This document shows, in pieces, positions 7,411-36,942 of a stretch of DNA of 56,816 nt (position 1 is its first letter; the number at the start of each line of letters is the position of its first letter). The stretch lies in the IMG/VR virus record IMGVR_UViG_3300027833_001879, positions 1 through 56,816 of that record; one strand, written 5' to 3'. The notes beneath the pieces are model-generated. The model ran no database searches and had not been told where the DNA came from. It saw only the letters and a list, made by a program, of their open reading frames with translations. This DNA is from a virus. Made by a program: the position numbers and the translations under genes.

Positions 7411-10400
7411 TTATCTGGTAACCTTAAATGCCCCATCAGGTATACTTAACATTGCAGTTTGTATTTGTGCAGGGAATCCAGATATTGCAGATGCAACTTT
7501 ACCGAGCTGGCGTTCTAATGCTTTGTTAGATGAACCAGATCTTGCTGCAGCAGGAGCACCACTAGAATTACCACCGGACTCACCTTCTGTTTTTGGTCCA
7601 AAGATTGAAAATCCAGTATCAGCCGGCTCAGCCATCATATCTCTGATATCTTCTACTGCTCTAGCTAATGCTTTATATGCTCCGCGATCATCTGACAGTT
7701 CAGAGCTTGATTTAAATAGATCACCAAATGCTACTGTCTTATCAATATCTATTTTATTAATAGAATCTGCGATTTTAGAAATTCCTTCAGCTGCCTTATC
7801 TAATAATCCTTTTTCTGCTACATCTCCTAATGTTACAATGAATGATGAGAAGTCGTGTAGTTGTGGTGATATAAGAGGATTAGTTTTATAAAGATCGCTA
7901 AATGCCGTTCCTATTGAAGTTAATAATGTACCAATAGATTTTGCAACCGAAACAGGATCAAAATCTCCACTAAACGCCTTAAGTCCTGCCGCTATATCAA
8001 TTAATGCATCACCAGCACCATCTACTGCGTCAATACCTTTTTCAACTAAGTTTTCATCCCAAGACATAAACCAATTTCCATCAGTTTCTTCTGCGCCACC
8101 AATAGAAGCAAATGCAGAACCAACCATTCCTAATACTTGTTTAATACTATTTGCTGTGGCTTCTGGATCTTTTAGACCAGCGAATGTTTCTAATGCGGTG
8201 GCAATTTTATTTAGTTCGGTACCTGCACCTTGTACAGCTGCAACACCTTCAGCAACTTTATTTTTTTTAATTCCAAATAAACTACTCCAAAACCCACCTG
8301 CTTCAACATTGCCTTCTTCAGCAACTGCAGCAAACGCTTCTTGTACAAATCCTATAGATTTACTAATGGCTGCACCTACTGCATCAAAATCTACGTTACT
8401 TTCTACTAATTTTTGAAACTCACTTAAACCTAATGCGATATCCTTTAATGCTTTACCTGCACTTTGTACTGATTGTACGCCTTCTTGTACTTTATTCTTT
8501 TTAATTCCAAATAAAGAACCGAAGAATCCACCTGCATCCACATTACCTTCATCAGCAACAGCGGCAAAGGCCTGTTGTACAAATCCTACAGATTTGCTGA
8601 TAGCAGCGCCAACTGCATCAAAATCTATATTACTTTCTACTAATTTTTGAAATTCACCTAAACCTAATGCAATATCTTTTAATGCTTTACCTGCACCTTG
8701 CACGGATGAAAGCCCTTCTGCAACTTTATTCTTTTTAATTCCAAATAAAGAACCAAAGAATCCACCTGCATCAACATTTCCTTCTTCGGCAACAGCAGCA
8801 AACGCTCTTTGTATAAAACCAACTGTTTTACTAATAGCCTCACCTAATACATCAAAGTCTACTTTAGAATCAACTAATTTTTGGAATTCAGTTAAGCCAA
8901 CAACTATACTAGTTAAAGCTTTACCTGCACCCATTACAGAATCAATACCTTTCTTAGTGGCATTAGGGCTGAATGCGTTTCCAAACACTGCTCCAAATAA
9001 CCCAGTTGGTGTTGCAGCTTCGCCACCAGCAGCAGCGAATGCACCTGTTATACCAGTCAATACGGTTGTTAGCTGTAAACTCTCATCAGCAGTCCAGCCT
9101 AATTTTTGATAATCTTTTAATCCTTTAGATAATTTAGTTAATGCCATACCGGCCGCTCCAAAACCTACAGCCGCTGCTGTCATTGCAACCGCATCAGCTC
9201 CACCACTTATTGCACCACCTATACTCTTAAAGATTCCACTTACTACTCCACCTTTATTAGGAGGTCCTATAAATGCTGTCTTTACACCTGCTAATGTAGT
9301 TGTTAAATTAAGAGCATCTTGTTCAGTAAAATTAACAGCCTGCATTGCTTTTAGGCCTGGTGCTAATGCTAGTAACCCTAAACCTATTGCACCAAAGGCA
9401 GCTGCACCTGGTATTATTGCAATCGCGGCAAGTCCTGCTGCTGCGAATACTAAACCTAATGCAGTTAATACACCAGCCTGAACAGCTACGCTGTCTAATG
9501 TTGCATCTTTTGTAGCTTTAGCAAATGGAGTATAACCTATACCAAATATAGCTAACCCAACTCCCATAAGGAAAAGAGAAAGTGCACCTTGTGCTATTAA
9601 ACTCAAACCTGCCCCTAATAGTGCAGTTACTAAACCAATGCCACCTAAGACCGCCAATTGTATACCAACTGCGCCAATAGTAGGTGCTGTGGATGCTACG
9701 AATGTTGCAAATATTGCATAGCCTATTCCAAAGACAATTAAACCCGCGCCCATAAGCATAAGGGATAATGATCCTTTATTAATTTGTTTATTTAATAATC
9801 CAATTATAGCGACAGCCCCACCTATTAAAACTATACTTGCAACCATTCCTAAAAGAATTTCAGGTTGCATCATAATAAAAAATGTAGTTATTGCAAATAG
9901 AGCTAAACCAACTGCAAATGATTTTAAAGCATCGCCTACTCTGTCTAATGCCCTTGCGCCTTTTCTTATTGGTTTGCTCATCTTACCAAGTAAGAACATA
10001 GCACCACCTATTAAAACTAAACTAGCAAGTAAAAAAGGAATTGCGACAAGTCCAACAATAGCTAATAATCCAGCTAAAGCTAAATTTTTAGCAAACTTTA
10101 ACATTGAAGAACTTATTAAATCTAAAACCTTTGCACCTTTCTTTACAGTCTTAGCTTCTTTACCTAATTTTACAAATGCAGGTGTAACTATACCAAGAGC
10201 AGTATTTAAAAGCTTTGCTCCAATAAGACCTATAGGTAATAAAAAAGTAGATAGTGCTAGATTTTTAGCAAAAGTACCAATAGAATTAGCTATTATCTCG
10301 AAAAATTGTGCAGCCTTTTTTAATTCCTTACCCTTTTCGCTTAATTCTAAAAATGTAGGCGTAATTATACCAAGAGCAGTATTTAAAAGCTTTGCTCCAA

Positions 10401-11085
10401 TAATTCCTATTGGTAATAGAAATGCAGCTATTGCTAGATTTTTGGCAAAAGTACCAATAGAACTTGATATTATTTGAAATGCTTCAGCACCTTCTTTTAT
10501 TTTCTTAGTATTAAATTCTTGCATCACCCCGTAGAGATCAGTTATAGCATCCTTGAATTTAGTTATAGCTTTCTTAGGAACAAATTTAAATATAAGTAAA
10601 CCTTTTGCTAATGTACCAGCACCAGCACCTAATAGTTTTAGGGCCTCCGCACCATCCTTAAATCCTGGATCAACTTTAGCACCTTTACCTTTGGCCTTTC
10701 CTTCGGATTTACCTTTACCACTTTTTCCTGCTGCTATTTGTTTTAAGAGCTTTGTTTGTATTTTCTGCTCTCTCATTGCTAGCAATTCACCACCACTCAA
10801 ACCAGTTTCATCAGACTCAGTAACGGCTTCAATTAAAAGACCAAGCATACTAGACAATTCAGCACCTAAGCTATCACTAGATGAGCGTGTTGCCCCAACA
10901 AGAGTACTTAACTTATTAGAAAGAGATACTTGTATTTTTCTAAGTATATCAGTTTGGACGTTACGCTGCCCTTTTCCTGTGGCAACTGCTACTGTTAATG
11001 CATCGAGAGATTCTGCTGATGATTCAGTTGCAGCTTGAATCTTAGTTAAAGGATTCATTAAGTCTTGTAGAGTTACAGCAGCCAT
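7411..11085 (-). CDS. Tail tape-measure protein candidate, 1224 aa
   Basis: The largest protein of the window. Its N-terminal 150 residues are polar. Residues of about 150-650 are strongly hydrophobic Gly/Ala/Ile/Leu-rich helical segments that repeat (FAKNLA ... LLPIG(I/L)IGAKLLNTALGI occurs twice, with further relatives). Next come three near-identical 78-residue repeats (DNA 8137-8826), then a low-complexity linker and a short C-terminal domain. Great length, internal repeats and membrane-like helices are typical of tape measures, and it directly follows a gp26-like chaperone pair, the usual position. It has no sequence similarity I can claim to T4 gp29. An alternative is another long baseplate or tail-hub protein. 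Confidence 0.7.
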   Translation of the reverse strand: MAAVTLQDLMNPLTKIQAATESSAESLDALTVAVATGKGQRNVQTDILRKIQVSLSNKLSTLVGATRSSSDSLGAELSSMLGLLIEAVTESDETGLSGGELLAMREQKIQTKLLKQIAAGKSGKGKSEGKAKGKGAKVDPGFKDGAEALKLLGAGAGTLAKGLLIFKFVPKKAITKFKDAITDLYGVMQEFNTKKIKEGAEAFQIISSSIGTFAKNLAIAAFLLPIGIIGAKLLNTALGIITPTFLELSEKGKELKKAAQFFEIIANSIGTFAKNLALSTFLLPIGLIGAKLLNTALGIVTPAFVKLGKEAKTVKKGAKVLDLISSSMLKFAKNLALAGLLAIVGLVAIPFLLASLVLIGGAMFLLGKMSKPIRKGARALDRVGDALKSFAVGLALFAITTFFIMMQPEILLGMVASIVLIGGAVAIIGLLNKQINKGSLSLMLMGAGLIVFGIGYAIFATFVASTAPTIGAVGIQLAVLGGIGLVTALLGAGLSLIAQGALSLFLMGVGLAIFGIGYTPFAKATKDATLDSVAVQAGVLTALGLVFAAAGLAAIAIIPGAAAFGAIGLGLLALAPGLKAMQAVNFTEQDALNLTTTLAGVKTAFIGPPNKGGVVSGIFKSIGGAISGGADAVAMTAAAVGFGAAGMALTKLSKGLKDYQKLGWTADESLQLTTVLTGITGAFAAAGGEAATPTGLFGAVFGNAFSPNATKKGIDSVMGAGKALTSIVVGLTEFQKLVDSKVDFDVLGEAISKTVGFIQRAFAAVAEEGNVDAGGFFGSLFGIKKNKVAEGLSSVQGAGKALKDIALGLGEFQKLVESNIDFDAVGAAISKSVGFVQQAFAAVADEGNVDAGGFFGSLFGIKKNKVQEGVQSVQSAGKALKDIALGLSEFQKLVESNVDFDAVGAAISKSIGFVQEAFAAVAEEGNVEAGGFWSSLFGIKKNKVAEGVAAVQGAGTELNKIATALETFAGLKDPEATANSIKQVLGMVGSAFASIGGAEETDGNWFMSWDENLVEKGIDAVDGAGDALIDIAAGLKAFSGDFDPVSVAKSIGTLLTSIGTAFSDLYKTNPLISPQLHDFSSFIVTLGDVAEKGLLDKAAEGISKIADSINKIDIDKTVAFGDLFKSSSELSDDRGAYKALARAVEDIRDMMAEPADTGFSIFGPKTEGESGGNSSGAPAAARSGSSNKALERQLGKVASAISGFPAQIQTAMLSIPDGAFKVTR
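8137..8826 (-). repeat. Three tandem 78-codon repeats inside the tape-measure gene
   Basis: The sequence aattccaaata recurs at 8269, 8503 and 8737, exactly 234 bases apart, and the flanking sequence is similar. Each unit encodes a segment like FAAVAEEGNVDAGGFFGSLF followed by GIKKNKV and a KLVES(N/K)xDFDAVG stretch. The first and second units in the protein are closest. Expansion by unequal recombination is the likely origin. Confidence 0.9.
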
Positions 11086-26889: not shown

Positions 26890-28011
26890 TTATAGGTTTG
26901 GTCTTAATCTTGCAAATTTCTCAGATACAGATTCTGCTACATATTCAAAAGATTCTGGTAATGCAGCTAATTTCTTTTTAGCATCAGCTTCCTTTTTCTT
27001 AAGCTCTGCAATATCTTCTTTACTATCTTCAATTGACTTTTGTAGTTTTTGAACCTTTTCTTCAGAACCTCTACCAGTTTTTAGATCTCTTTGCGCCTGT
27101 TCTAAATCTTTAGTAGCTTTATTCATCGTAGTTCTCTCATCTTCTATTCTATCATTAAAAGCTTTAATATCAGCTTCTAATTTTGCAGATGGATCATCTT
27201 TCGGTGCCTTTTTCTTGAGTTCAGTAATATCATCAGCTAGTCCTTTAAATACTTCATCGTTACCTTCAAGCTTAGCTTTTTTCTGCTGTGCTAGTTTAAA
27301 ATTAATCTCTGCTTGTAATTTAGCCGTTTCATCATCACCGTCCTTTACAGCATCATATGCACTTTTAGCTTTACCGATTTCATCTAACACTGCGTCTTTA
27401 GCAATCTTAGCTTTTTCTTTATCTTCTGCTGGTAATGGTGGTGGTGTTTTTCCTGTCTTTCCATCTTTTCCTGTTTTAGCAGGTTTTTCTGTTTTAGCAG
27501 GTTTTTCTGTTGTAGGCATTGCAGAGTCGTCTGCTGGTTTATCATTACCATCAGATTCATAATCTTTTAATGCCTTTTGAGCATCTGTGGCTTTTCCAGT
27601 TAATTTAGTTTGTTTAATTTTTAATCTTTTTGCTTCTTCACCATCAGCAGCTTTAAGTACAATCTTATTTGCAGCTAAAGAAGATTTTGTCTTAGCTAAT
27701 TTTACAACTTGCTTTAATCCATCAGTTGTAGCCAAATCAGCCATTCTTTGTCCTATGTTAGAAGCAGTATCTGCTAATGCTGAATTCTTAGCTTTATTAG
27801 CCTGATCTAATACTTCCTTTTGTTTAGCAGAAAGAGTATCTGAACCCTTTTCTTTTCTCTTAGCATAATCTACATCATTAAGAGCTTGTGCAACTCTAGC
27901 TTTTTGATATTTCTTAGCATTGTTTTTAATCTTTTTCCACTTAATAGGATTCTTAACGGCATCAATTAGTGCTTCATTAACAAACTCAGAATATGTTTTT
28001 AGTTTTGGCAT
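26890..28011 (-). CDS. Internal head protein with capsid-targeting N terminus, 373 aa
   Basis: The N terminus MPKLKTYSEFVNEA matches the capsid-targeting sequence of T4 internal proteins (IPIII starts MKTYQEFIAEA) with the prohead protease site after E13 (VNE|A). The rest is Lys/Ala/Asp-rich coiled coil: residues 15-160 and 200-350 helical, with a flexible Lys/Thr/Pro segment (about 170-200: EKPAKTEKPAKTGKDGKTGK). It sits directly after the capsid gene in the head operon, with its own AATATATAAA and a terminator before it. Packaged with DNA and perhaps ejected, or a scaffold core component. Confidence 0.7.
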   Translation of the reverse strand: MPKLKTYSEFVNEALIDAVKNPIKWKKIKNNAKKYQKARVAQALNDVDYAKRKEKGSDTLSAKQKEVLDQANKAKNSALADTASNIGQRMADLATTDGLKQVVKLAKTKSSLAANKIVLKAADGEEAKRLKIKQTKLTGKATDAQKALKDYESDGNDKPADDSAMPTTEKPAKTEKPAKTGKDGKTGKTPPPLPAEDKEKAKIAKDAVLDEIGKAKSAYDAVKDGDDETAKLQAEINFKLAQQKKAKLEGNDEVFKGLADDITELKKKAPKDDPSAKLEADIKAFNDRIEDERTTMNKATKDLEQAQRDLKTGRGSEEKVQKLQKSIEDSKEDIAELKKKEADAKKKLAALPESFEYVAESVSEKFARLRPNL

Positions 28012-28116: not shown

Positions 28117-30009
28117 TTAGATAAGTTGAGCTCCACCACCGAACGTAAAGTTCATTGTGTAATACATTAATTCAGGATTGAACCCAGCATCTACTAAAGC
28201 AAATCTTGATTTAACCGCGATTTTAGGAGCCATAGTTCCTTCTGCGATTGTTTCAACAGATTCAGCCATTAAGTAAGGCATAAATACCAAACCAGGAGAA
28301 TTACCATCACCTTTACGTCCTACAGCTACTGTGTAGTCATTAAAAGCTCTGTTAGGATCTACATAAATTGTTACCCCAGCAATTGCACCGATTGGATATA
28401 AAGATCCACCAGCTTGGTTAACTGTGTTAGATAACGGGAATGCAATAAATCCAGCTACAGATTGAAGAGCAGTTGCCATTTCTCCACCTGTTACTGCAAA
28501 CGTTGCAGGTCCTCTTCTTCCTCTAGTAGCAATTAAGTTACTTGCAGCAAGAATTTTAGTATAGATTCTACGTTGTAGAGTTCCTTGAGTGTTTCCACCT
28601 CCAGCTACAGTAGCACCAGTTACAGCGACAGTTGCAATTGCATTAGTCGTGTTGTTAGGTCCTAAAGGTAAAGCAGCATTAGCGACAGGGGCAGCAGCAG
28701 CAGTAAATGCTTCTGATAAAACCGTACCGTTTACAGCTTGTACATTAACAGCGTTTGTTACACCGTTTCTGAAGATTCTATCCAAGATATACTTGTTAAT
28801 AGATTGAGTTAACTCATTTACCAATACTGCTTCAACTTGAGCGACAGCATCAATACCGAATTGCTTCAGATCTTGAACTTGTTCTCTTGTTACACCAGCA
28901 GCTACTTGGAAAGTATCAGCGGCAACAGATTTGTTAAATAAAGTTAATCCCATTAAGTTATCAACAGTAGATTCTCCAACACCTCTAAGGTAAGGATCAG
29001 TTCCATTCATGTTTTGAGATCCAGCAGCGAATGCAGGAGCCAAAGCAGCAGGGTTATTAGCTGGTTGGAATGCATTTCCAGAGAAACCTGAAATATGATC
29101 TTCCAACGCCTTAACGTATCCTAACTGAGTACCACCATTAATAGCAGTTTGGAATGTTCCACCAACAGTCATGGCAGCAACACCACCTACAAAGGTAGCT
29201 ACTTGTGAACCAGCTACAGCAGCACGAGTTGCACCAGCAGCAGGAGCAGCAGGCCATGCAGCAACAGCAAGTTGAATAAACCAGTTTGCACCGGCAGCAA
29301 TTGATGTATAAATCGGTTCAGCAGCACCTTCACCACCTTGTGTGAATGTATTTGCAATACCATTTGCACCAGTTGCAACAATTGCAGCAGTGGATGATCT
29401 TACTCTGAAGATTTTTAAACCGTCAATTCTAGAAACACCTACAAAAGTTAATTCGTAAGCAGGTCCGTCGGTTGCAGCAACATTAGAACCAACGTATATT
29501 ACATCGTTTACAGTCCAGTTAGCAGCACCACCTACAGCAGGAATTGCATCTACTTTAATTAAAAGAGAAGTACCATCTACATCTTGACCTCCATTTACAG
29601 GAGCTCCAGTAGTTCTACCTCCACCATATACAAAGTCTAAGTAAGTTAATACTCCCATAGGGCCTTGCATTGGTACAACAGGTACTAAGTCTAAACCTAC
29701 AGTCTGAGCTGCTACTTGCATTGCAAGTGGTAACAAAGAAAAAGGTCTGTCACCAGATCCAGTTACTTGTGCTGGGAAAGCATTCATTGATCCAGGGTTT
29801 CCTGGTAATGTTGCGTTGCCCATACTTTGAACATTCATGTTCGGGTTAAGGTGTACAGTATTGTAAACACTTTCATTAAGGTTATGGTAATGGCAATACT
29901 TAGACATCCAAGATAACTTAGATTTTTCAGTAATTCCAGTACTTTCCTCAATAACAGGTCCCCAAGTCTTTTGAACCTCAGCCTCATTGATTAATTGATT
30001 TGCGTACAT
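28117..30009 (-). CDS. 23: Major capsid protein (T4 gp23-like)
   Basis: A 630-residue protein; T4 gp23 is 521. The region LAMQVAAQTVGLDLVPVVPM ... VLTYLDFVYG matches gp23's IPNLIAFDICGVQPM ... VFALRAVYG. Further along come EQVQDLKQFGIDAVAQVEAV, the helix equivalent to the RQLKAAYSIELAQDL region, and a C-terminal TIYVDPNRAFNDYTVAVGRK (strand near the T4 YRVYIDQYAK). The N terminus QLINEAEVQKTWGPVIEEST corresponds to the T4 propeptide and carries [ILV]xE sites for the head protease. An Ala/Gly-rich insert (about 190-330) makes it longer than T4. It is the last gene of its transcript, before a strong terminator. Confidence 0.92.
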   Translation of the reverse strand: MYANQLINEAEVQKTWGPVIEESTGITEKSKLSWMSKYCHYHNLNESVYNTVHLNPNMNVQSMGNATLPGNPGSMNAFPAQVTGSGDRPFSLLPLAMQVAAQTVGLDLVPVVPMQGPMGVLTYLDFVYGGGRTTGAPVNGGQDVDGTSLLIKVDAIPAVGGAANWTVNDVIYVGSNVAATDGPAYELTFVGVSRIDGLKIFRVRSSTAAIVATGANGIANTFTQGGEGAAEPIYTSIAAGANWFIQLAVAAWPAAPAAGATRAAVAGSQVATFVGGVAAMTVGGTFQTAINGGTQLGYVKALEDHISGFSGNAFQPANNPAALAPAFAAGSQNMNGTDPYLRGVGESTVDNLMGLTLFNKSVAADTFQVAAGVTREQVQDLKQFGIDAVAQVEAVLVNELTQSINKYILDRIFRNGVTNAVNVQAVNGTVLSEAFTAAAAPVANAALPLGPNNTTNAIATVAVTGATVAGGGNTQGTLQRRIYTKILAASNLIATRGRRGPATFAVTGGEMATALQSVAGFIAFPLSNTVNQAGGSLYPIGAIAGVTIYVDPNRAFNDYTVAVGRKGDGNSPGLVFMPYLMAESVETIAEGTMAPKIAVKSRFALVDAGFNPELMYYTMNFTFGGGAQLI

Positions 30010-30114: not shown

Positions 30115-31236
30115 TTATCTACCTAATCTGAATTTCATTTTTTGAATTAAATCTGCAGAGAAGCTTTCATTTAATAATGGCTCAGTTTTTGCTTGAGCAG
30201 CTTCAGCAGCAGTTTTACTTTCATTGATTGATTCTAAATTCATTTGAGTATCTCTAAGATCTCTTGTTTGCCAAAAGTTATTAATAGCATAAGGAGTACT
30301 TAAAGAGTGGAATTTAGATTCAGCAATTATTTGTTCTTTTCTATTTTGTGACAGTGCATTCCATTTATCAGAATATTTAGACGGCATATCATTAATAAAA
30401 TTAATTGTCTTTCTTTCAGTTATAAAACATGAGTCCCAAACATTCTCTGCTTGTACAGTTGACATAATAGAATCTTTATTCATTGATTCAACTAATAGAA
30501 CTTTTTTATCATCAGCCAAAGAATCAAACTGATTCTTTTTAGATTCTGATAAGAAATTCATAAAGTGCATTTCAGAAAGATTTTTAGTTTCTGCCTTAGA
30601 AATTAAAGCAGCTAATTTTTCACTGATAGTATCTTTATAAGATTTAGTATCTTTAACAGTTTCAACTGATTCATTAATAGATTCTTCTATTGTTGCTTCA
30701 GATGATTCTTCGTTAATTAATGTTCCATCAACAGTATTTGCATTTTCTGCAATATACTCAGAATATTTAATAGACTTAGTTAAATTTTCACCAAGATATT
30801 CTGAATAAGCAATATTCTTATCAACAGTTTCAGCAACATACTCAGAGTATTCAATTCCTTTTTCTAATTTTTCTCCTAAGTAATTAGAATATTGAATTCC
30901 TTTATCTGCTTGTTCAGCAACGTGTTCGCTGTATTGAATAGTTTTATCTAGTTCTTCTCCTAAGTAAGAAGAATAGTTTTTAATCTTATCTACGTTTTCC
31001 GCTAAGTAGTCGGAGTAAGATATGCTTTTGTCAAGATTCTCAGATAAGTATTCAGAATAATCAGTTACCTGATTTACTTTCTCTGCAACATGCTCAGTGT
31101 ATGCAACCAATTTTTGAATTAGTTCATCACTGTTTGAATTTGCAGATTCCTTAACACTGTCTAATGTATTTTTAACATATTCAGTGTACTTATTGAAATC
31201 CTCAACGGTTACAAAATTTTCTGATGTATTTTCCAT
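30115..31236 (-). CDS. 22: Possible separately initiated scaffold product (gp22-like, internal start)
   Basis: An in-frame internal ATG at 31236 begins MENTSENFVTVEDFNK. The preceding bases AAATAAATAAAACAAATAAAACAGATCTAACA look like the A-rich leaders before other starts here. Translation from it would give a 373-residue scaffold without protease, as phage lambda makes Nu3 inside C. T4 makes far more gp22 than gp21, so a separate start would solve a stoichiometry problem. Inferred. Confidence 0.4.
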   Translation of the reverse strand: MENTSENFVTVEDFNKYTEYVKNTLDSVKESANSNSDELIQKLVAYTEHVAEKVNQVTDYSEYLSENLDKSISYSDYLAENVDKIKNYSSYLGEELDKTIQYSEHVAEQADKGIQYSNYLGEKLEKGIEYSEYVAETVDKNIAYSEYLGENLTKSIKYSEYIAENANTVDGTLINEESSEATIEESINESVETVKDTKSYKDTISEKLAALISKAETKNLSEMHFMNFLSESKKNQFDSLADDKKVLLVESMNKDSIMSTVQAENVWDSCFITERKTINFINDMPSKYSDKWNALSQNRKEQIIAESKFHSLSTPYAINNFWQTRDLRDTQMNLESINESKTAAEAAQAKTEPLLNESFSADLIQKMKFRLGR

Positions 31237-31827
31237 TGTTAGATCTGTTTTATTTGTTTTATTTATTTCGTCTTCAGTATTCTCCATTTCGTAAATGTAT
31301 AAACCTTCAGTATCTTCAAATCCATAAGATTCATTTACTCTCGCCAATTCTGCATTTTCAAAACCAGGATCAGCTACTAAATCATATGTAAAGAATTTTT
31401 TAATTTTAACTTTACCTGCCTCATCAACAGTACCTGCAGCTCTACTTGAAATATGTAATGGAATACCATCTTCTATTAATGCCTGAGCTTCTTTACCTTT
31501 TGTAGTATTTAGTAATCTTATTCTTCCTAAAACTTGCTTCTTTCCTTTATCGTATTCTAAATCTTCGATAACATGAGATACATTTGATAGACTAATATCA
31601 AAATCTTTAGGGTGGTCAAGCTCTCCTAACAATTTGTTAGTTTTAACTTTTTCCTTTAATTCATTTATATGAGGAAGAACTTCAGCCTCTTCATATATTC
31701 TATTGTTTTTATTCTTTACTCCGATCTCTGTAAATACACCTTCTAAAACAATTGAGCCATCGGCATCCTTTGTCATGTTTAGGTTAGACTTTGATCTTTC
31801 TAGAATTAAAAGTTTCTTATTAGACAT
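30115..31827 (-). CDS. 21: Prohead protease fused to scaffold (T4 gp21-gp22 fusion)
   Basis: A 570-residue fusion. Residues 1-165 are the T4 gp21-like serine protease (herpes-assemblin fold): KLLGELDHPKD with catalytic H72 and HISSRAAG with S127/S128; T4 gp21 is 212 aa. Residues 198-570 resemble scaffold: an acidic coiled coil with nine exact-length 14-residue repeats (243-368) like YSEYLxENLDKxI, then helical regions up to a basic end MKFRLGR. Each repeat contains [ILV]-[AGS]-E, the protease cleavage pattern. An ATG at 31236 (residue 198) preceded by an A-rich leader may allow separate scaffold synthesis. It lies between portal and capsid genes, as genes 21 and 22 do in T4. Confidence 0.85.
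   Translation of the reverse strand: MSNKKLLILERSKSNLNMTKDADGSIVLEGVFTEIGVKNKNNRIYEEAEVLPHINELKEKVKTNKLLGELDHPKDFDISLSNVSHVIEDLEYDKGKKQVLGRIRLLNTTKGKEAQALIEDGIPLHISSRAAGTVDEAGKVKIKKFFTYDLVADPGFENAELARVNESYGFEDTEGLYIYEMENTEDEINKTNKTDLTMENTSENFVTVEDFNKYTEYVKNTLDSVKESANSNSDELIQKLVAYTEHVAEKVNQVTDYSEYLSENLDKSISYSDYLAENVDKIKNYSSYLGEELDKTIQYSEHVAEQADKGIQYSNYLGEKLEKGIEYSEYVAETVDKNIAYSEYLGENLTKSIKYSEYIAENANTVDGTLINEESSEATIEESINESVETVKDTKSYKDTISEKLAALISKAETKNLSEMHFMNFLSESKKNQFDSLADDKKVLLVESMNKDSIMSTVQAENVWDSCFITERKTINFINDMPSKYSDKWNALSQNRKEQIIAESKFHSLSTPYAINNFWQTRDLRDTQMNLESINESKTAAEAAQAKTEPLLNESFSADLIQKMKFRLGR
30724..31101 (-). repeat. Nine tandem 14-codon repeats in the scaffold part
   Basis: Residues 243-368 consist of nine 14-residue (two-heptad) units without gaps: Y-(S/T)-x-(Y/H)-(L/V/I)-x-E-x-x-x-x-x-x-x. 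The conserved Tyr, hydrophobic and Glu positions repeat at every unit, and each has an [ILV]-x-E tripeptide. The DNA copies have diverged, so the repeat is old or under protein-level selection. Confidence 0.9.
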
Positions 31828-31874: not shown

Positions 31875-33521
31875 TTATATTCCAGCTAATGGGTCCTCTT
31901 CCATGCCGTCATCTTTCTTCTCTGGTTTAAAATCTTTAGGATTAGCGCCTAAAAGTATCTTTTCAATATCTTCTTCTTTATAACCAGCTACTGATAGTTC
32001 CTCACGTTCTTTTGCTCGGGCATTTGCTTTCATATCATCACGTGTAAATCCACCGTATCTCTTAATTAAGAATCCTAAATCAAAGTATGGTATTTCTTCC
32101 ATATCAGGACCCATTGTACTTAATTGAGTTTTCATATTACCAATAAAGTCTACTCTTTTTGTTGAAAGTTCCATTTCTTTCATTTCTTCAAATACATTAT
32201 CTTTTTCAAAACTTAATCCTAAACCAGCTTTAAATGCAATATCATTTTTTAATTCAGGATGATTAAGACACATTTGAAGATATACAGGCTTAACCAATAT
32301 TTCTTGCCATATAGATCTTAGTCTAGAAATAAATCTACCAAACTTAATTTCATCTCTTAACATACCACTTGCCTCCATATCATAAGTATTACCACCTTCT
32401 CTATCAAATCTAGAAAAAGGGATTTTTGATGCAAGTTGTAATTTATCAGAAAAGTATTTTAAAGATTCAGTATCACCTAAATCAGGACCGTCTCCACCAA
32501 TAGTTTGAATTTCTGGTGAATCACCATCTTTAGACGGTAGCCAGTATTCTTTATTAAACGGCATCATTGGCTTACCGTTAGTTTGTATTTCACCACTTTC
32601 AAAATTAAAATCAACAACCTCTCTATATGAATTCATTAATGTTGATAATGATTGTTTTGCTCTTGTTTTAGATTTACCACCGACTGGGATAGTAAACTGA
32701 GTTTTAAATGAAGCATTAGATACAGCCCAGATTATTCTACTATGCTCCATTATTCTTAATAAGTTAAATGATCTAATTAATCTTTCAACATAGGATATTC
32801 TCATTGGGGAATTAACTTGTGAATATGAAATGTATATTATTTGTGAATCCCATAATTTTCTTTCTTTTGCCCCTTCTCCTTTATATTGAATCCAAACCTT
32901 TTTACCATCTTCATCATCAATACCTGGCATTAGTGATATTGGATCTAATTCTTTAAAACCAATAATTTCAGTTTGCTTATCATTATAAACTATTTCAAAT
33001 GCAAGATAACCATCTATCATCCATTTTCTAAAATAATTCCAAGGGGATACCGAATCACTAAATCCAAAGTAATTATAAATGTTATTATATACATCATTAA
33101 TTTCTTCTTCAATAGATTCTCCTATGTGCCCATTAAAATCAGCATAAGCCATATAATTAGATTCATCAAACACAATGGCTTCATCTGTGATTACATCTAA
33201 GATCTCTTCTATTTCATCTTGTACTGCAAATTGTCTAAGCTGATCACGTTTTCTAATATAATCTTGGTCAAAGAATGCAATGTTTTTCTTTAATGTAGTA
33301 TCAGTTAATGATAGAGCAGCAAATGCACCATACATATCATCACTATCAGATCCCATTGGATTAAATGAATAACCCATCTGGTTTTCAGTAAAACCAACTG
33401 CCCTAGAATTACGAATGATCATATCATCATAAGCCATTCCTAAATTAGAAAGATCTTTAAGGATCTTTCTTACTGGATTACCAGTGCTTAAAGGACCTCT
33501 TCTATCTGTAAAACCTGCCAT
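31875..33521 (-). CDS. 20: Portal protein (T4 gp20-like)
   Basis: A 548-residue protein, close to T4 gp20 (524). The stretch RDQLRQFAVQDEIEEILDVI TDEAIV (two adjoining segments) is the conserved portal N-terminal helix region. YFRKWMIDGYLAFEIVYND, EYWLPSKDGDSPEIQTIGG and SKIPFSRFDREGGNTYDMEA also follow gp20. A C-terminal acidic tail ends EEDPLAGI. It forms the dodecameric vertex through which DNA enters and to which terminase docks. It is the first gene of the portal-protease-capsid series. Confidence 0.93.
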   Translation of the reverse strand: MAGFTDRRGPLSTGNPVRKILKDLSNLGMAYDDMIIRNSRAVGFTENQMGYSFNPMGSDSDDMYGAFAALSLTDTTLKKNIAFFDQDYIRKRDQLRQFAVQDEIEEILDVITDEAIVFDESNYMAYADFNGHIGESIEEEINDVYNNIYNYFGFSDSVSPWNYFRKWMIDGYLAFEIVYNDKQTEIIGFKELDPISLMPGIDDEDGKKVWIQYKGEGAKERKLWDSQIIYISYSQVNSPMRISYVERLIRSFNLLRIMEHSRIIWAVSNASFKTQFTIPVGGKSKTRAKQSLSTLMNSYREVVDFNFESGEIQTNGKPMMPFNKEYWLPSKDGDSPEIQTIGGDGPDLGDTESLKYFSDKLQLASKIPFSRFDREGGNTYDMEASGMLRDEIKFGRFISRLRSIWQEILVKPVYLQMCLNHPELKNDIAFKAGLGLSFEKDNVFEEMKEMELSTKRVDFIGNMKTQLSTMGPDMEEIPYFDLGFLIKRYGGFTRDDMKANARAKEREELSVAGYKEEDIEKILLGANPKDFKPEKKDDGMEEDPLAGI

Positions 33522-35058: not shown

Positions 35059-36942
35059 TTATATCTTAACTTCTAAATCTCCTTTAGGCATTATTATACT
35101 TTTTCCATTCTTAGGGATAATTACACTTAACATATCATCATCACCTAGAGAAGCATATTCTTCAGCATTAACTAAAACTTCTTGTCTTACTTTAAGACCT
35201 TGCCCGCTTTTTTTAACCGATGCTTCTACGAAGCCGTCGTTTAAATAGTCGTCTTTAGTTTTTTTTTCAGTAATATATGAATTAGCTAATTCTTTTTCTT
35301 TTCCGTTTAACTCTTCAGCTAATAAATTTAAAGCTTCTGTTAATTCTTCAGTTTCACCTAACTTTTTAATAGCAGCTTCAACTTCAGATTTCTTTTCTTC
35401 TAGGAAAGAAATAGAATCAGTAAGATCTTTTCTTTTATTTTCTTCAATTGCTTTTTCATTATTTTCAGCAAGTAATCTTTCAGAAAGAATTGGAGAAATA
35501 TCAAAATTAATAAATTCTTTTACAACATCAACAGTTTCAGTTGCAGTGTCAAGTTTTATCATTTCATTTAATCCCATACCTGGATTTACTTTATTAATAT
35601 AGATACCTTCCTGTACGCCAATCATTGTTAAAAAGACATCAGCATATTCTTGGTTCTGTATTGTAGTAAAGTCATCTAATTCACAAACTAAATCAACACT
35701 TTCAAAGAATTTACAAATTTTATCATTTTGCCATTGATTTTTATACCCTGAGAATTGAGTTGCTTGTAAAGTTTCTTTTAATTCAATTATACTATAATTT
35801 GATAAATCAATTTTGCCCATTGTTAAAGTTCCTTCGGCAATATTATATGTTAATGATTTATTGTTGTCTCCATGTAATGAAAGTATATCTCCAGTTCTTG
35901 AGAACATTTTTAAACCTTCGGATACATCGAAGAATCGTGGATCAGTTACAGTTGCTTCTGTAATGCTTTTACCATCATAAGTATAATTCTTACCATGTAA
36001 TTGGAATGTTAATCCATTTTCAGATTCTAATACAGGCGAAAGAATTTTTACAACCTTTCCGTTTGCAGTAGATGCAACTTTTTGATCTTCAGCATTCATT
36101 TCATTTACAATTGCTTTAGCATCCATTGACCACGGGTTCTTAGCAGCAATAACAGCGAATTTAGATTTTACATCCGATTCATTTAATAAAGAAACTAAAT
36201 CAGAATTTAATGATTCCATTAATTTTCCTTTTTGAAATGATGTTCTTTCAATAGATTCACTAATTCTAAAGTGCCATTTAGATTTATTATATGATTCCAT
36301 TATATACTCTCTCAATTCAGAAATTGGATTTAACCAAGTACTTTGAGATAATTTAGTATATAGGTCTCTTGCGATTTTAAATTTAAGATTAGGATTAGTA
36401 GATTTCTCTATCTCTTCGCTAATTAATGCAAGGTCAGCATTTTTAAGTTTCATTGGGAATGCAGATAATGCTCCCTCTAGAATAGTTAAAGATTCTTTAA
36501 CAGAATATGAAACTCTGGAGTTATCATTATCCATTGCTTTTAATCCGTTAATACTATCCATAACGTTTTCATACAGATCGGTTAATGTAAAGTTCATTTT
36601 GTTATGATTTTTTTGATTATTGTTTTCAGTGTATATATCGGATTTATCTTTATTGCTTTTACGATACATGGATATTCCAGACATTGCCATCTGTTGTGGT
36701 ATTCCCATACCAACTAAAATAGCTAATACTTGTTCATCTGTCATTGATCCACTATGATCGATTTTATGATCATTGTCAACATCTGACATTCTACCACTTT
36801 GTTGAAACAATACATGAATGATATCCAATAATTGTTGTCTTGGTTGATTTAAAAAAGGAGCGTCAGTTTGTACACCTGCTTGTGGATTTACTCCACCATC
36901 AGAATACACCTGAGTCTGCCCTTCATTTGTTGTGTTTTCCAT
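35059..36942 (-). CDS. Hypothetical virion-region protein, 627 aa, coiled-coil C terminus
   Basis: Unrecognised. Residues 30-110 contain PRQQLLDIIHVLFQQSGR and a Gly/Met-rich stretch (VGMGIPQQMAMSGISMYRK). From residue 116 (MNFTLTDLYENVMDSINGL) a long acidic helical protein begins, with many [ILV]xE tripeptides, a beta-like centre (about 300-400: QLHGKNYTYDGKSI) and a coiled coil at about 490-570 (SISFLEEKKSEVEAAIKKL). It lies in the head gene block with a late-promoter motif, so a head or neck role is likely. The ATG at residue 116 (36597) is preceded by GATATATA and an A-rich stretch and could be a second start. Confidence 0.6.
   Translation of the reverse strand: MENTTNEGQTQVYSDGGVNPQAGVQTDAPFLNQPRQQLLDIIHVLFQQSGRMSDVDNDHKIDHSGSMTDEQVLAILVGMGIPQQMAMSGISMYRKSNKDKSDIYTENNNQKNHNKMNFTLTDLYENVMDSINGLKAMDNDNSRVSYSVKESLTILEGALSAFPMKLKNADLALISEEIEKSTNPNLKFKIARDLYTKLSQSTWLNPISELREYIMESYNKSKWHFRISESIERTSFQKGKLMESLNSDLVSLLNESDVKSKFAVIAAKNPWSMDAKAIVNEMNAEDQKVASTANGKVVKILSPVLESENGLTFQLHGKNYTYDGKSITEATVTDPRFFDVSEGLKMFSRTGDILSLHGDNNKSLTYNIAEGTLTMGKIDLSNYSIIELKETLQATQFSGYKNQWQNDKICKFFESVDLVCELDDFTTIQNQEYADVFLTMIGVQEGIYINKVNPGMGLNEMIKLDTATETVDVVKEFINFDISPILSERLLAENNEKAIEENKRKDLTDSISFLEEKKSEVEAAIKKLGETEELTEALNLLAEELNGKEKELANSYITEKKTKDDYLNDGFVEASVKKSGQGLKVRQEVLVNAEEYASLGDDDMLSVIIPKNGKSIIMPKGDLEVKI

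Follow-up and report, generated by a model that had tools for sequence, protein, structure and literature searches.

Tandem repeats resembling the T4 capsid-targeting sequence in a predicted protease-scaffold fusion of a T4-like virus related to very large phages

The window that we analyzed is an IMG/VR fragment of 56,816 nt (IMGVR_UViG_3300027833_001879, positions 1 to 56,816) from a T4-like virus with kinship to the largest known phages. Its minus strand contains a gene for a gp20-type portal protein (31875..33521; Pfam Portal_T4, E 3e-72), a 570-aa ORF for a predicted protease-scaffold fusion (30115..31827) and a gene for a gp23-type major capsid protein (MCP; 28117..30009; Pfam Gp23, E 5e-29). 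The gene order of T4 is thus held, with the portal upstream of the protease-scaffold gene and the MCP downstream, and no separate gp22-like or scaffold ORF was found between the portal and MCP genes. Conserved N-termini place a predicted MCP maturation site at LNE46^S (29872-29874, minus strand), and an [LIM]xE^[SNG] site was present in every MCP N-terminus compared. Upstream of the portal gene is a 627-aa ORF (35059-36942) that is rich in [ILV]xE-S (LISEE, IMESY, LNESD) and has no family matches in Pfam or PHROG; it is a possible further core protein. Elsewhere in the window, three 234-bp direct repeats (8220-8931) lie inside a 1224-aa ORF (7411..11085) that possibly encodes a tape-measure-like protein.

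The 570-aa ORF matched Peptidase_S77 (PF03420; Pfam, E 9.5e-14) and the head maturation protease family phrog_207 (PHROG, E 7e-38), and its N-terminal part matched the sequence of the T4 gp21 structure 5jbl (E 3e-5). Invariant columns in 38 relatives mark residues 1-166 (31330..31827, minus strand) as a gp21-type protease domain. Both H72 (GELDHP) and S127/S128 (HISSRAAG) are invariant in these relatives, in contexts that correspond to GELNHPP and GVSSRGLG of T4 gp21. An N-terminal [ILVM]xE site, LILE10, is kept in 38/38 relatives; its T4 gp21 counterpart is LIE-9, and an activation site near residue 9 is expected for the gp21 type. The motif is also kept in 38/38 relatives at Glu166 of RVNE^SYGF (31330..31332, minus strand), which is the predicted point of auto-cleavage between protease and scaffold. 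AlphaFold modeled the domain with a pLDDT of about 75-86 across most of its length. On every feature open to sequence analysis, this protease is a gp21/S77 member. At the other end of the protein, hmmsearch identified a conserved C-terminal domain with FWxTRDLR (residues 385-570; 30118..30675, minus strand) that is common to the protease fusions of Tenacibaculum phage PTm1 and Chryseobacterium phage MA9V-2 (E 2.9e-11 and 7e-6). These two fusions resemble the window protein in joining an S77 protease to a C-terminal domain of the same type, but unlike it they have no YSEYLAE repeats. The PTm1 fusion (L087:5998-7767) contains repeats of its own, ~16 aa long and with [FY]TKELSE; these may amount to an independent scaffold of repeats that has protease-like sites.

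Between the two domains are nine ungapped 14-residue repeats (residues 243-368; 30724..31101, minus strand) with the pattern Y-S-E-[YH]-[ILV]-[AGS]-E-x-[LVA]-[DEN]-[KQ]-x-I-x. An earlier note on this DNA had reported nine repeats with exactly these boundaries and [ILV][AGS]E at the same place in each; both observations hold, the motif being at positions 5-7 in 9/9. All nine fit Y-x-x-[YH]-[ILV]-[AGS]-E, and position 4 is His in two. When the 126 repeat residues were permuted 20,000 times, [ILV][AGS]E occurred 0.77 times on average and at most 5 times, with no more than 2 in the 14-aa register. The note had overlooked a degenerate unit upstream of the nine, YTEYVKNTLDSVKE (YTEYVKN...; residues 214-227; 31147..31188, minus strand). 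In 70/70 clade A proteins, this unit keeps both tyrosines and never has Glu at position 7. Mean identity between repeat copies is 58% in nucleotides and 46% in amino acids, which indicates that the repeats are old. Recent DNA expansion was rejected for the window clade because each of the nine repeats there has its own conserved identity; TRF called no tandem DNA repeats at the array. We also rejected motif density as evidence of cleavage. The protein is Glu-rich, and loose [ILVM]xE is almost as dense in the protease domain (5.4 per 100 aa) as in the repeats (7.0 per 100 aa). Since the loose motif is common throughout the protein, the signal is carried by register and conservation. The repeat domain has cleavage motifs and an acidic, predicted helical composition; in two AlphaFold runs the repeats were helical at low confidence (pLDDT below 50).

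Nine repeats were also found in close IMG/VR relatives (n=80, 53 distinct proteins), with ten in one of them (L053). A query with the repeat gave 483 matching stretches in IMG/VR, and in 80/80 of the matches fetched the array has 8-15 repeats and is part of a protease fusion. Within INPHARED, the repeats were confined to the huge-phage records LR756500-LR756504 and LR745206, and the four largest curated phage genomes (634-735 kb) carry the array. The largest known phages, of 634, 636, 642 and 735 kb, belong to the Mahaphage clade and have predicted Bacteroidetes hosts (PMC7162821); genomes with the repeats include ones equal in length to these four. No such repeats are present in the Lak-A1 homologue. 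One to four repeats of the scaffold type also occur in small ORFs outside the protease gene (L128:9760-10380, L129 near 10483-10635 and L126 15658-16576), which possibly encode auxiliary core proteins. A short additional copy of the protease domain, with 41% identity, occurs elsewhere in each of two huge phages (W05:C1:11434-11784 and W01:C1:154846-155139). A literature search confined to open-access papers found no earlier description of the repeat scaffold.

To describe selection on the repeats we calculated pN/pS by repeat position in 46 non-redundant sequences of the window clade. Glu7, the P1 residue, was the most constrained column (0.003) and is encoded by both Glu codons. It was followed by Tyr4 (0.005), Tyr1 (0.025) and position 3 (E3; 0.031), with the other positions between 0.15 and 0.59. 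Glu7 is found in at least 99.5% of clade A repeats and in 97% of clade B repeats, and in the 80 arrays fetched from IMG/VR it was present in 99.5% of 1008 repeats. One explanation for such a column is a purely structural helical rod, in which 14 aa are two coiled-coil heptads (14 = 2 x 7), Glu provides salt bridges or helix stability and cuts at other places, the INE, LNE and VNE sites of the linkers, remove the rod. The predicted helices, a peak of hydrophobic periodicity at 103 degrees per residue and linkers rich in INES/LNES sites are consistent with this. However, the constraint on Glu7 exceeds that on the hydrophobic positions of the core (5, 9 and 13). On a helical wheel Glu7 is about 160-167 degrees off the hydrophobic face, which means that its invariance is not accounted for by core packing alone. 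It also sits exactly two residues past an obligatory aliphatic residue, as the T4 motif needs.

The sister clade C (LR756500 and L293-L313; tally from 13 proteins) also speaks for the rod. Here the 14-aa register is kept with Glu7 in only 76% of 103 repeats, and one repeat without it, YAEYVGLKTDQNIE, is fixed in most members. A site in every repeat, as in the window and as the earlier note emphasized, is therefore not a necessity, as 25/103 clade C repeats do without the Glu. All of these Glu-less repeats have an aromatic residue or His at position 1 (25/25) and an aliphatic residue at position 5 (25/25), and most have an aromatic residue or His at position 4 (20/25). This retention indicates that the pattern for association is separable from the residue for cleavage. 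We regard a rod of purely structural function as unlikely.

T4 has a scaffold, gp22, that its head protease degrades to small peptides (PMC9958956, PMC5694885). The published motif of that protease is L/I-x-E (PMC9026906), which agrees with the earlier description of the repeat motif as the T4 head-protease pattern. Together, the match to L/I-x-E, the constraint on Glu7 and the invariant [LIM]xE site of the MCP make cleavage after the repeat Glu residues plausible. The window virus is like T4 in having a scaffold gene beside those for the protease and MCP and in the dense L/I-x-E sites of the scaffold, of which T4 gp22 has 19 (as [ILV]xE) in 269 aa. It differs from T4 in that its scaffold is fused to the protease, consists of tandem 14-aa modules and has no detectable gp22 homology. 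Searches of 38 members with Pfam and PHROGs gave no match to gp22 (PF25623, phrog_237), and when the C-terminal domain was compared with gp22 by hhalign, the probability was 1%. These comparisons thus did not reveal homology of the scaffold domain to T4 gp22; judged by its position and composition, it would work like gp22.

A second feature of the gene is a conserved A-rich block with the ATG of Met198 (31234..31275, minus strand), which was recognized from its start context and from synonymous suppression. Met198 is directly ahead of the scaffold part and is invariant in 38/38 relatives. The 24 nt upstream of it have a start score of 5.8, as compared with a median of 4.2 for true starts and a 99th percentile of 4.0 for internal Mets. 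In codons 187-198, pS is 0.033, versus a gene mean of 0.40; this is the deepest pS dip within codons 1-368 and is comparable to that at the gene's own start (0.08). The invariant Met and the suppression upstream of it imply an internal start that would yield the scaffold alone, as a 373-aa product (residues 198-570). A promoter element at this site is a possible alternative. Only the window subclade shows a strong dip; the L054 subgroup has a milder one, and in clade B it is moved upstream. The internal start was not confirmed as a uniform feature beyond the window subclade.

Phage lambda C/Nu3 and herpesvirus UL26 also have protease and scaffold in one polypeptide. In lambda C/Nu3 and UL26/UL26.5, an in-frame internal start gives the scaffold alone, and self-cleavage occurs between the two parts. 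The window virus is similar to these in its protease-scaffold fusion, internal scaffold start (here a sequence signature only) and predicted self-cleavage. It differs in having a T4-type gp21/S77 protease and a scaffold built of repeats with a site per repeat. The earlier note had proposed a repeat scaffold fused to its protease and considered this self-dismantling arrangement a distinct design. The locus bears out the fusion, with a gp21-type protease and a repeat domain in the scaffold's place. The claim of a distinct design is only partly supported: a scaffold cut to peptides is the norm for T4 gp22, and protease-scaffold fusions are known from lambda C/Nu3, from UL26 and from the annotation of the PTm1 homologue as a 'prohead core scaffolding protein and protease'. 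The failure of Pfam, PHROG and hhalign to detect gp22 homology would also fit a repeat domain that is no scaffold but a tail of the protease that acts as cargo or binds DNA. This is very improbable given the PTm1 annotation, the acidic and predicted helical composition, the location between protease and MCP where there is no other scaffold ORF, and an internal start that would lead to a protease-free product.

The repeats also resemble the capsid-targeting sequence (CTS) of T4 internal proteins. T4 IPII and IPIII both begin with MKTYQEFIAE, where genetics assigned residues 4 and 7 to targeting and residues 8 and 10 to processing (PMC9026906). The repeat Y1-S-E-Y4-L5-A-E7 aligns without gaps to Y4-Q-E-F7-I8-A-E10 of the CTS. 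The likeness is thus Y-x-E-[YF]-[ILV]-A-E, in which the targeting residues align to Y1 and Y4 and the processing residues to L5 and E7. The earlier note had noticed neither this resemblance nor the internal start. The T4 CTS is single and N-terminal on cargo, whereas the window virus has nine internal copies within its scaffold. An N-terminal placement is found in a separate 373-aa ORF after the MCP gene (26890..28011, minus strand) and in dozens of ORFs of relatives. The 373-aa ORF has the N-terminus MPKLKTYSEFVNE^A with the motif at residues 7-13 (27973-27993), a full fit to Y-x-x-[YF]-[ILV]-x-E. Most of its 37 distinct homologues have a CTS-like N-terminus and a few are divergent. This ORF is a predicted internal head protein.

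We scanned the first 20 residues of ORFs for an N-terminal tag, [YFHW]xx[YFHW][ILVMF]xE, and compared the counts with shuffles. The 735-kb phage (LR756501) had the tag in 63/967 ORFs (shuffles: mean 8, max 17), LR756504 in 29/881 (mean 6.9, max 15) and genome G002 in 12/153 (mean 1.1, max 4). There were 26 tagged ORFs among 627 in LR756500 (mean 4.7, max 10), and 21 of these 26 tags begin exactly at residue 7 (MKYIxxYEEF[LI]xE). The close relative G001 had only 6 tagged ORFs, and one shuffle reached 5. Under a stricter motif, 58 ORFs of the 735-kb phage represent 42 unrelated families when grouped by the remaining protein body. In T4, which served as a control, the scan picked up IPII, IPIII and one other. 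The same scan gave no enrichment in PTm1 and PAU, both of which are without the repeats. We rejected these two as carriers of the same tag, since PTm1 is unenriched and the tag of PAU differs (MKTLxxLYE). In Sphingomonas phage PAU (L422-L432), ~20 ORFs begin with MKT[LI]xxL[YF]E, including annotated scaffolding and internal capsid proteins. The tagged ORFs of LR756501 (L091-L127), LR756500 (L153-L176) and LR756504 (L177-L208) include some chance matches; among the tagged ORFs scanned are a DUF2201 metallopeptidase, a PNK 3'-phosphatase, leucine-rich-repeat proteins, a radical SAM protein and a nucleotidyltransferase. DUF5856 is a separate CTS-tagged ORF in G002 (L144:522-938) and is embedded in a 1207-aa protease polyprotein in MA9V-2 (L089:5911-9534), which suggests head cargo freed from the polyprotein.

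Aromatic-aliphatic-Glu may be nothing but the extended substrate motif of the protease of this lineage, so that repeats and tags share cutting and not docking. One enzyme would then cut both the repeats and the N-terminal tags, and the T4 IPs bear the motif although T4 has no such scaffold repeat. Because T4 uses a CTS but its gp22 is without aromatic repeats, mimicry of a scaffold repeat is not the whole story in T4. By contrast, an aromatic pair is absent from the conserved sites at which cleavage is predicted outside the core (MCP LNE46, VNE166 and LILE10), which argues that this pair is not a protease requirement. In addition, residues 4 and 7 of the T4 CTS serve targeting rather than processing, and the Glu-less repeats of clade C keep an aromatic residue or His at position 1 and mostly at position 4. 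These points make a motif for cutting alone doubtful.

The interpretation that we favor is that this region is a self-cleaved scaffold of tandem CTS-like modules within a gp21-type protease-scaffold polypeptide, and we give it a probability of about 0.6. It builds on what can be read from the sequences: the architecture, register, conservation, internal-start signature, CTS resemblance and N-terminal enrichment. From these we infer cleavage, helical bundling and docking by mimicry, as follows. In each of the nine helical 14-residue modules, positions 1, 4 and 5 would serve core association and Glu7 would be the P1 residue for cleavage. The full-length protein would carry the protease into the core and the internal start at Met198 would supply protease-free scaffold. 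Once the prohead is complete, the protease would free itself at LILE10 and VNE166 and then cut many or most of the repeats. The core would exit as peptides of ~14 residues, for example NLDKSISYSDYLAE, or as longer ones of at least 28 residues if a site is lacking. Since the modules and the T4 CTS are sequences of one kind, a cargo protein with one copy at its N-terminus may mimic a scaffold repeat and so dock in the core, to be released afterwards by the same cleavage. Counting against this interpretation are the low pLDDT of the helices, the lack of detectable gp22 homology, the absence of aromatic repeats from T4 gp22, the P2 residue (Ala in the repeats, mostly Asn in the CTSs of the huge phages), the loss of Glu in clade C, the weak tagging in G001 and the uneven dip at Met198.

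What is new at the sequence level is the tandem CTS-like modules, their presence in the largest phages with many tagged ORFs, and the signature of an internal scaffold start. We suggest more tentatively, as an idea that is somewhat more apt to be wrong than right, that in the lineage of the largest phages the scaffold is a polymer of CTS modules, that cargo mimics the repeat and that the fused protease cuts both at the same position. If this is true, one 7-residue code would build the core, load dozens of proteins and clear the core. A tandem CTS-like scaffold would be a direct model of CTS docking. For the 634-735 kb phages it would be a candidate for the scaffold and would help to predict which proteins they carry into their hosts; it also suggests how tags of the T4 type may recognize the scaffold.
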